From positions 1 through 27,017 of IMG/VR virus record IMGVR_UViG_3300048127_000158: a stretch of DNA of 27,017 nucleotides; one strand, written 5' to 3'. The stretch is from a virus. Positions 4,332 through 8,662 of this stretch are shown one piece after another. A program made the translations under genes and the position numbers. Position 1 is the first letter of the stretch. Every line of letters begins with the position of its first letter. The notes below the pieces were generated by a model, which made no database searches, was not told the DNA's origin, and saw only the letters and a list, made by a program, of their open reading frames with translations.

Positions 4332-4592
4332 TTAAGTTATGTAAAAGGGTTGTTCTATTGTCTCAAAGTCTACCTTGTTGTGCAGTTCTTTAGCAATACG
4401 CAAGGCATCTTCAAATATATTTACGCCATAGATGTTCCGCCTTGATTTAGCATCTATGATCGTTAGCTCGTTTATTTTTATGTCTATAAGACACCTAACA
4501 ATAAACGTTCTGTCATTCCTTACCATTGTAAAGGATAACCTGTAATTTGTTGGGGTAATTTTTGCATCTCTAAATGTAGTTTCTAGTTCCAT
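4332..4592 (-). CDS. 86-residue hypothetical protein
   Basis: It begins MELETTFRDAKITPTNYRLS and is predicted mostly beta strand in the first half (R-T-F-I-V-R-C-L-I-D-I-K-I-N-E-L-T-I-I-D), ending in a helix (E-D-A-L-R-I-A-K-E-L-H-N-K). The start overlaps the preceding gene's stop by 10 nt. No family is recognised. Confidence 0.65.
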   Translation of the reverse strand: MELETTFRDAKITPTNYRLSFTMVRNDRTFIVRCLIDIKINELTIIDAKSRRNIYGVNIFEDALRIAKELHNKVDFETIEQPFYIT

Positions 4593-6801: not shown

Positions 6802-7101
6802 TTATTTAATGTTAAGTGAATTAGGTTTGCGTGTTGTGTAGTGTTTAGTTACTTTGTTGAAGTAGGCAGTTTTGATTATCTTATTATCTACCTTCAAACG
6901 GAATACTGACCAATCTCCAAAGTCTCTTTTTGTTTGTTTAATTGTGCAGAAATCATTTGAATGTGTCCCGCTACTTCCTACTTTTACATGGATTTCTGAA
7001 TGATCTCTCACTCCATAGCTTTTGTTTCCTTTTTTGTGTGGCGTACTTGCATAAGCACACGAATCAATTACGTTGTAAATTGGATAACTTCGATTTCCCA
7101 T
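6802..7101 (-). CDS. 99-residue basic hypothetical protein
   Basis: It begins MGNRSYPIYNVIDSCAYAST and is basic overall, with beta-strand character (D-W-S-V-F-R-L-K-V-D-N-K-I-I-K-T-A-Y-F) and several His residues. It contrasts with the acidic genes that follow. The start is preceded by an A/T leader (AATCTAAATAAATACATT). No family is recognised. Confidence 0.65.
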   Translation of the reverse strand: MGNRSYPIYNVIDSCAYASTPHKKGNKSYGVRDHSEIHVKVGSSGTHSNDFCTIKQTKRDFGDWSVFRLKVDNKIIKTAYFNKVTKHYTTRKPNSLNIK

Positions 7102-7138
7102 AATGTATTTATTTAGATTAGTATTAAGGTTTTAAAAA

Positions 7139-7264
7139 TTAGATACCCCACGAGATATTTTCTACACTCGTGAGGTTGTTGTCGATTTTTACGTTTGTAC
7201 TGATGTCGCCCAAACGGATGGCGACTCGCCTTCTTCCTTCCCTCTCAATTGGAGTTTTTGCCAA
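7139..7264 (-). CDS. possible 41-residue ORF with TTG start, or a gene remnant
   Basis: From a TTG at 7264 the frame reads MAKTPIEREGRRRVAIRLGD and ends N-I-S-W-G-I before TAA. The codons have purine-any-pyrimidine periodicity (GTC GCC ATC, GGC GAC ATC) and are richer in G/C than those of the neighbours, which looks coding. The same frame continues upstream to about 7505 with coding-like segments but two in-frame stops, as in a decayed gene. Against coding, the DNA forms two perfect 6-bp hairpins and an H-type pseudoknot (see the RNA candidate). A competing 29-residue ATG frame lies at 7189-7278. Confidence 0.25.
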   Translation of the reverse strand: MAKTPIEREGRRRVAIRLGDISTNVKIDNNLTSVENISWGI

Positions 7265-7661
7265 TGTGCAAAAAGCATTAAGTTAATACGCCAAATGTCT
7301 TGAGTTTACATAGCTTACCACGACTATGTCACAATTTATTGATAATGAGTTTTTCCAAAGTGGCTACTCATTCGGTTGAAGTGCTGGACTTGAAAATAGT
7401 ACTTGCATCAGTTGATTATATTTGTTTAGCTGTTTTACTATGGTTTCGTTGCACCACACCACTGAACAGGGGTATAATCTACCTTTGTTTGTCTTGAAGG
7501 GTCATCTCCTTCATCTTTTCAATATGGTTTACCGGTTTGGCTTGGGTTCTTTTTTTAGTTCTGGACTATTTGCATTGAGCAAAGAACTTACTACTTAAGA
7601 AATAAAAATTTCTAATTTGCCGATAAATAAATTTTGTAAGTAGTGGGGGAATTGCACCCCC
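7141..7661. ncRNA. candidate large structured RNA or decayed gene region (about 520 nt)
   Basis: No convincing gene fills 7102-7673. The stretch carries many short perfect inverted repeats: 7149-7154/7167-7172, 7308-7313/7324-7329, 7344-7350/7366-7372 (7 bp), 7495-7500/7508-7513, 7557-7561/7584-7588 extended by 7569-7573/7579-7583, 7590-7597/7637-7644 (8 bp, with 7598-7603/7608-7613 nested) and 7645-7649/7657-7661 (GGGGG/CCCCC with a 7-nt loop). At 7192-7225, CGTTTG/CAAACG and GTCGCC/GGCGAC interlock as an H-type pseudoknot. In the leftward sense its loops of 3 and 7 nt suit the geometry. CCCCAC at 7146-7151 could also pair with GTGGGG at 7643-7648 and close the whole domain. The alternative is a pseudogene, since a leftward frame shows coding-like pieces separated by stops. 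Confidence 0.35.
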
Positions 7662-7673
7662 AAAAAAATTGTT

Positions 7674-8048
7674 CTAACCTACTTTTTTAAGCTGGCTGGC
7701 ATTTTGTCGCCTAACCTTTGTTTTAATGGTTTCAACTTTGTTAAATTTTCTTAACATCATTAAACCATCGTAAAAAGAGAATAAATTTTTTCCCTCTTTT
7801 GCAACATTTTTAAAGTCTTTAAAGGCTGGAAATTTAGACTTTCCAAGAATTCCAGCTTTTTGAGACTCGGTCAACTCCTTAACCTTTTTAAATACATTTG
7901 ATAAACTTTTATTTTCCAGCTTATCGGTTGCGTTGGTTAACCTTACCCAATCAAAAGAGCTTTTATCTTTTTTTCCTTTTAGGGTTTGGATTGTTGCGTT
8001 GGTTTTGACAACCCACTTTGGGGCTGTCGCTTGCTTTGTAGCTTGCAT
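7674..8048 (-). CDS. 124-residue lysine-rich hypothetical protein, first gene of the leftward block
   Basis: It begins MQATKQATAPKWVVKTNATI and is Lys-rich throughout (K-G-K-K-D-K-S-S, F-K-K-V-K, T-K-V-R-R-Q), with a helical C-terminal half (F-S-F-Y-D-G-L-M-M-L-R-K-F-N-K-V). As the promoter-proximal gene of the leftward transcript it would be made first, and its strong positive charge is compatible with binding nucleic acid. Both points are inference, and no family is recognised. The leader before ATG is A/T-rich (CAAATACTTTAATT). Confidence 0.65.
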   Translation of the reverse strand: MQATKQATAPKWVVKTNATIQTLKGKKDKSSFDWVRLTNATDKLENKSLSNVFKKVKELTESQKAGILGKSKFPAFKDFKNVAKEGKNLFSFYDGLMMLRKFNKVETIKTKVRRQNASQLKKVG

Positions 8049-8631
8049 AATTAAAGTATTTGAATGAACGTAAATTTTGGACTAATTAAAGTCAATACAA
8101 TACTATTGAGAAAAAAAAATGTAATCGCAAAAAATGTGGAAATATAAATTTTTTTATGTCTTTTGTTTTATTTCTTTATTTATTTGGATTTGTCAATTTT
8201 ATTTATTATAGGCTGGATTTATTAGGGCTTACCAGGTTAAAGCATTTTTTCAAGGTTGGGACTATTTAAAGAGCTGGTTTAATTGGCTGGTAATGTTGGG
8301 CAGTTGTAATTTTTCCAGCTGGAGTTCTTTAGGGGGTGTTTGTTTAGGTGTTTGTAATCTTAAAAGGGGGGCTGGTCGCTGTCCCTGGATAACTTCCACA
8401 GCTTACCCGATTAAACGCCCCAAAGAGAGGCAAACGTCAAAAGTTTTTCGCCTGCTGTCGTTTTTTCGTTGGGGGGTGGTGTTTGTGGTTGGGTTTTCTG
8501 TAGGATGTCGGGCGTTGTATTATATATATAACCCAAATACTACACATTTCTAACGGTGGCATAAAAAGTGGACATTAACTATCTACTATTATAGGTGTAC
8601 AGTTATTTGTCACCTTTTCCCGCCACATCTT
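8049..8631. other. divergent non-coding control region, possible origin
   Basis: No credible gene is seen. The stretch at 8140-8210 is almost entirely A/T. The next 300 nt are strongly G/T-rich on the + strand, with five GCTGG words between 8212 and 8375 (8212, 8273, 8286, 8318, 8371), one in a CCAGCTGG palindrome. AACGCCC at 8414-8420 is a perfect inverted repeat of GGGCGTT at 8510-8516 and would close a domain of about 100 nt; an AT-rich ATATATATA run follows at 8521-8529. The region separates leftward from rightward transcription, a usual place for an origin or regulatory sites, but no known iteron or initiator box is identified. Confidence 0.4.
8098..8131 (-). promoter_or_regulatory. weak candidate promoter for the leftward block
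   Basis: Read leftward: TTTG (8131-8128), a 22-nt spacer, then TAGTATTG (8105-8098), which differs from TAnnTTTG at one position. It sits 50 nt before the first leftward start at 8048. The spacer is at the long end of the reported Bacteroidetes range. Confidence 0.35.
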
Positions 8632-8662
8632 TTTGTCGTTACATTTATTATCTATATCTTTG
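8632..8662 (+). promoter_or_regulatory. Bacteroidetes-type promoter
   Basis: TTTG at 8632-8635, a 19-bp spacer, and TATCTTTG at 8655-8662. This matches the Bacteroidetes consensus TTTG / TAnnTTTG in both boxes and in spacing. Transcription would begin near 8669 and meet the terminator at 8708-8747 about 40-80 nt later. Confidence 0.75.

Follow-up and report, generated by a model that had tools for sequence, protein, structure and literature searches.

A candidate large structured RNA encoded beside a small basic protein gene in an uncultured phage

The DNA analysed here, hereafter the window, is a 27-kb contig (27,017 nt) of an uncultured phage, in which early-type genes occupy the minus strand on the left side (an exonuclease, an Erf annealing protein and many small genes) and groEL/groES together with later genes occupy the plus strand on the right side. 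Among named phages, the best matches of its GroEL are those of Flavobacterium phages (41% identity), a closeness that suggests, short of proof, a host belonging to the Bacteroidota. Between p124 and the next early gene lies the gene-free stretch with which this work is concerned (Table 1). An earlier reading of the letters, here called the sequence-only reading, had described 7141-7661 as a gene-free stretch dense in hairpins; no gene was found inside these limits, but the true extent of the stretch is wider than that reading stated. Only one ORF in it reaches 60 aa, a mechanical one of 65 aa on the plus strand.

Table 1. Genes and predicted RNA features at the p124 locus (window coordinates).
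Feature	Position	Strand	Remarks
99-aa unknown protein, next early gene, outside the RNA unit	6802..7101	minus	another, unrelated gene there in L013, L126, L202
Gene-free stretch encoding the proposed structured RNA	7102..7673	minus	no shared ORF; homologous stretches in L013, L126, L202
Likely RNA body	about 7673 down to about 7130	minus	within gene-free stretch 7102-7673
p124, 124-aa basic all-helical protein of unknown function, first early minus-strand gene	7674..8048	minus	directly upstream of RNA
P1, hairpin GGGGG-UGCAAUU-CCCCC, T-loop-like loop	7644..7662	minus	12 nt after p124 stop codon; kept in L004, L013
P2, ACUACUUA (7644-7637) with UAAGUAGU (7597-7590)	7590..7644	minus	8 bp in window and L013, 6 bp in L004
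P3, UUUAUCGG (7627-7620) with CCGGUAAA (7535-7528)	7528..7627	minus	8/8 pairs in window (one G-U), L004, L013
P4, hairpin AGAAAU-UUUU-AUUUCU	7598..7613	minus	L013 has hairpin GAACAAU..AUUGUUC at the same place instead
P5, hairpin UGAAGG..CCUUCA, then conserved AAGACA	7495..7513	minus	double changes in L004; UGGAG..CUCCA in L013
P6, hairpin AAUGAGU..ACUCAUU	7344..7372	minus	12-mer AAAACTCATTAT recurs in L202
Hairpin ACAUAG..CUAUGU	7308..7329	minus	A-U to G-U in L004 keeps the pair on minus strand only
Hairpin UUUUUGC..GCAAAAA	7255..7274	minus	from hairpin count; invariant in L004
Compact H-type pseudoknot, GUCGCC/GGCGAC and CGUUUG/CAAACG	7192..7225	minus	DNA segments CGTTTG 7192-7197, GTCGCC 7205-7210, CAAACG 7211-7216, GGCGAC 7220-7225; rare in shuffles
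3'-terminal hairpin, 10-bp stem, bulged pyrimidine, GUA-GNRAA-UAU	7145..7176	minus	covariation, model search
CUAA just after 3' hairpin	7139..7142	minus	same place in window, L004, L013, L126, L202

The p124 product is small, lysine-rich and basic, and its AlphaFold2 model is all-helical (pLDDT 81.5). No match was obtained in Pfam, PHROG or PDB, Foldseek against PDB likewise returned none, and no RNA-binding fold was recognisable; a viral entry of BFVD (A0A516M6Y5, 144 aa) matches it with 40% identity (E = 1e-8). The gap separating p124 from groEL measures 892 nt and, at 8430-8640 (minus strand), contains blocks conserved among several related contigs (L118, L120, L121, L123, L125 and L126), namely a promoter-like GGGTTATATATACAATAC preceded by an inverted repeat, GTGGCAtaaaaa..tttttatGCCAC, with AAATAACTGYACACC between its arms; together they possibly form an early promoter with an operator or origin. 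Four of the 14 groEL-bearing contigs (L114, L115, L116 and L118) end within this gap, 211-684 nt upstream of groEL, and these repeated breaks may mark a genome end or an obstacle to assembly.

Searches with p124 recovered a near-identical contig (L002/L010), relatives with about 92% identical DNA (L003/L011 and L004/L012) and the more distant L013 and L126, whose proteins are 65% and 42% identical, as well as L202 (47% in alignment A5; 39% by tblastn to L126). The carriers amount to four independent lineages, all metagenomic, with protein identity down to about 40%. Besides the near-identical contig, homologues of p124 occur only in L004/L003, L013, L126 and L202, and each is followed directly by a gene-free stretch, of 566 nt in L004, 664 nt in L013, 488 nt in L126 and 630 nt in L202. 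No homologue was present in genome_contigs or in named phages, DNA searches gave no further relatives, and both p124 and the RNA models were absent from the other related records searched, which were reached via groEL or the 99-aa gene and are possibly fragments. One stretch retrieved through an 18-base conserved word (L015) was discarded as a chance match, being by appearance a different type of phage without p124. The gene downstream of the RNA is unrelated across the window, L013, L126 and L202, and in L126 an extra gene stands between the RNA and the homologue of the gene that directly follows the RNA in L013. Since p124 always adjoins the stretch while the downstream gene changes, the RNA travels with p124. 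Between the window and L004, identity is 96.8% over the stretch (99.3% over 7102-7400), 89.3% over the p124 gene and 97.0% over the downstream gene, the stretch thus evolving more slowly than the adjoining gene upstream.

No reading frame in the stretch is common to the window and its relatives, and the small translated matches among lineages fall in several frames on both strands, evidently reflecting short conserved DNA words. The sequence-only reading would have been contradicted by an intact protein gene at this place in the homologues; such a gene was looked for and none of them carries one. The Rfam search that it had proposed returned no family, GOLLD and ROOL included: at gathering and at permissive thresholds only chance-level matches appeared, and the GOLLD and ROOL covariance models were unlisted even at E up to 10 in the window, L013, L126 and L202. 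The best Rfam match was LhrC in L013, far below its cut-off (30.8 bits vs 110), and the blv_FSE and Plastid-ycf2 matches on the P1 hairpin were of chance level. ARAGORN detected neither tRNA nor tmRNA in the window. A type III toxin-antitoxin system was rejected, the stretch having no tandem repeats and the RNA lying downstream of the gene, and so was a guide-RNA system, p124 matching no nuclease family.

Regarding folding energy, for which the sequence-only reading had also suggested a check against shuffles, the RNA strand (p124 sense) was lower than its shuffles in all homologues. In one run its z-scores were -1.9 for the window, -3.4 for L004, -2.4 for L013, -3.3 for L126 and -1.9 for L202, better than the other strand in all five stretches, and three coding controls gave -0.9 to -1.3. 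These scores vary between single runs, and the window stretch taken alone reaches only modest values (minus strand about -1.8 to -2.4, plus strand -1.0 to -1.7). The strong evidence for the RNA is comparative. At 7532 and 7325 a single partner has changed, creating or preserving a G-U pair that can form only if the minus strand is the RNA; the 3'-terminal hairpin has an invariant G-U pair. The strand, which had been left open, must be the minus strand, with the RNA read from about 7673 to 7130.

The claimed density of hairpins is indeed above chance. With loops of 3-12 nt, six perfect stems of at least 6 bp occur in 7141-7661 against 1.3 in dinucleotide shuffles of the same region (P = 0.007), and with loops of 3-20 nt there are ten against 2.3, a count reached by none of 300 shuffles. 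The H-type pseudoknot at 7192-7225 was also found exactly as described, with loops of 7 and 3 nt and 0 nt between the helices. Shuffling the region 3000 times gave an equally compact pseudoknot of 6 + 6 bp in 30 cases (about 1%), and no second one as compact exists elsewhere in the whole window. Read on the minus strand, the pseudoknot has the geometry usual for the H type, with the deep groove spanned by its 3-nt loop and the shallow one by its 7-nt loop; read on the plus strand, the two loops change places and the fit becomes tighter. This pseudoknot is identical in L004 and is not recognisable in L013, L126 or L202.

Helices P1 to P5 can all be formed in L013, where the 5' strand of P2 precedes P1, and the crossing of P2 with P3 constitutes a pseudoknot, distinct from the one just described, that is kept in the window, L004 and L013. 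The closing pair of P1 is T-A in the window and A-T in L004 and L013; its counterpart in L126 is GGGGG-AGCAUAU-CCCCC, and a 6-bp equivalent of P3 is possible there. From AAAACTCATTAT of P6 to the 3' end the distance is 252 nt in the window and 251 nt in L202, and the element pairs in L202 too. The window and L004 differ by 18 substitutions, among which two double compensatory changes in P5 (7511/7497 and 7510/7498) were scored on the structure predicted from the window only (P = 0.0012). The same structure has six other predicted pairs broken in L004, therefore parts of that prediction are unreliable; a joint fold fitted to the window and L004 shows three double changes, four consistent single changes and none broken. 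L126 and L202 are not detected with the 5'-domain model (R2), and the middle of the RNA could not be aligned beyond L004.

The loop and stem of P1 also recur outside this family. The exact 17-mer GGGGGTGCAATTCCCCC (window 7645-7661, minus strand) was found in 94 IMG/VR stretches. Among the 90 stretches fetched by the 17-mer alone (L019-L108), 23 are tmRNA-like 3' ends and 41 have it in an intergenic position, with a stop codon upstream (at 4-30 nt in most) and a start codon downstream (at 7-35 nt in most), the genes flanking these 41 copies being very different and in different phages. At 17 scanned loci, Rfam recognised no family except a tmRNA, and GGGGGTGCAATTCCCCC may represent an unrecognised T-loop hairpin recurring in phage messages. 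In L013, three GGGGTGCAAT hairpin starts stand in a row inside its RNA at 4385-4530 (GGGGGTGCAATTCCCCC, GGGGGTGCAATGCTCACC and CGGGGTGCAATACC).

The best-supported element is the 3'-terminal hairpin, whose stem sequences differ among the window, L013 and L126, whereas the bulged pyrimidine, the GUA-GNRAA-UAU core and the following CUAA are common to all three. In these lineages, 8 of the 14 pairs are altered on both sides, 97.6% of the alignment cells are paired, and the observed covariation was reached by none of 500 shuffles. A leave-one-out model (R3), built from two lineages without L126, finds L126 at E = 4.7e-13 (61 bits), every other match scoring at most 18.8 bits. The hairpin of L202 is without the GUA-GNRAA-UAU core. 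A degenerate pattern of the hairpin returned 72 stretches, and the flanking stem was present in none of the new ones.

Taken together, the sequence evidence shows a stretch that does not code for protein, is conserved, has a structured minus strand and stays with p124; it has what characterises a large structured phage ncRNA, namely more than 400 nt of non-coding DNA with comparative support for several helices. The proposal of a new large ncRNA made by the sequence-only reading is therefore supported by the lower folding energy in the homologues, the lack of a protein gene, the compensatory changes and the lack of an Rfam match, and a new large structured phage RNA, matching no Rfam family, can be considered well supported. 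Concerning its function, we regard as the fairly probable reading that a structured ncRNA of about 540 nt derives from the leftward early transcript and acts in trans. The RNA would be transcribed leftward with the early genes, begin just past the p124 stop codon, be cut or terminated out of the transcript and end at the conserved hairpin followed by CUAA; its fold would comprise several helices together with a conserved pseudoknot, and it would act during early infection, stand-alone or as a ribonucleoprotein. Encoded immediately upstream of the RNA in every case, lysine-rich and predicted to be all-helical, p124 is the natural candidate partner, and this basic protein is possibly the one most likely to bind the RNA.

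The main rival, which we judge unlikely, is that the RNA acts in cis on the early operon, as a long structured UTR or attenuator controlling downstream genes or protecting the transcript end. In its favour, the genes on both sides form a series on the strand of the RNA, every lineage has the CUAA only 24-48 nt before the gene-free stretch ends, and P1 resembles a hairpin recurring after stop codons in many phages. Nevertheless, the RNA stays with p124 while the downstream genes are unrelated, 490-660 nt with a pseudoknot would be much for a leader, and no terminator-like site was found there on the minus strand. A discrete trans-acting RNA is best supported because of the extensive structure and the absence of a tie to any downstream gene.

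The strict linkage of the RNA to p124, and the small size and lysine-rich composition of the protein, would also suit an autoregulatory 3' element to which p124 binds, limiting its own expression, with no other function for the RNA; usual autoregulatory sites are far shorter and simpler, which makes this improbable. That the hairpins act in single-stranded DNA, at a replication origin or packaging site, seems very improbable: although the minimum of the cumulative GC skew falls at 7201-7800, this turn coincides with the change in gene direction, RNA is favoured by G-U pairs that are conserved and by one strand folding better throughout, and related phages with a similar groEL are without such a stretch. 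An AT-rich spacer with a few hairpins by chance would fit the z of only about -2 of the window stretch alone, but is scarcely credible in view of the compensatory changes, the leave-one-out match at 5e-13 and the change slower than that of the upstream gene.

The proposed mode of action, in trans and either stand-alone or as a ribonucleoprotein, would parallel that presumed for the GOLLD, ROOL and OLE RNAs. The RNA proposed here resembles GOLLD, known from aquatic samples, as a large structured phage RNA with pseudoknots whose 3' part is conserved and whose 5' part is less so; however, GOLLD is often over 800 nt (490-660 nt here) and often has tRNA genes adjoining or embedded, whereas the window has none, the RNA is linked to a protein gene and the GOLLD covariance model gives no match. 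With ROOL it shares a similar length, a phage-borne origin and pseudoknots, but there is no Rfam match and it is accompanied by p124 instead of lying near tRNAs. Both GOLLD and ROOL are large, phage-borne, cage-forming RNAs whose function is unknown, and both often lie near tRNA genes or islands; ROOL env-120 measures 659 nt, and no protein partner is known for ROOL (PMC12286853). OLE, structured, of about 600 nt and working with proteins, differs in its host range, mostly Gram-positive extremophiles and anaerobes (PMC12054373), and its Rfam model is not matched here. Some phage tmRNA-like 3' ends have a T-arm of exactly the sequence of P1 (GGGGG-UGCAAUU-CCCCC), but a tRNA-like domain with a tag-coding region was found neither by ARAGORN nor by Rfam, and a tmRNA identity was rejected (6.9 bits vs a cut-off of 47). 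By covariance model and by tRNA neighbourhood the RNA belongs to neither GOLLD nor ROOL, and by these sequence criteria it is a new family of their broad kind, differing in its constant protein-gene neighbour.

More tentatively, and with somewhat less than even confidence, we hypothesize that the RNA and p124 represent a new family of phage ribonucleoproteins, in which a pseudoknotted RNA of 490-660 nt and a dedicated small protein encoded upstream would function together in early infection, probably of Bacteroidota hosts; such a family would have no relationship with GOLLD or ROOL and, in contrast to both, a constant protein-gene neighbour. Known large structured phage RNAs are, to our knowledge, very few in number. 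Another one, unrelated to them and accompanied throughout by a single protein gene, would offer a candidate partner and, with it, a handle on function.
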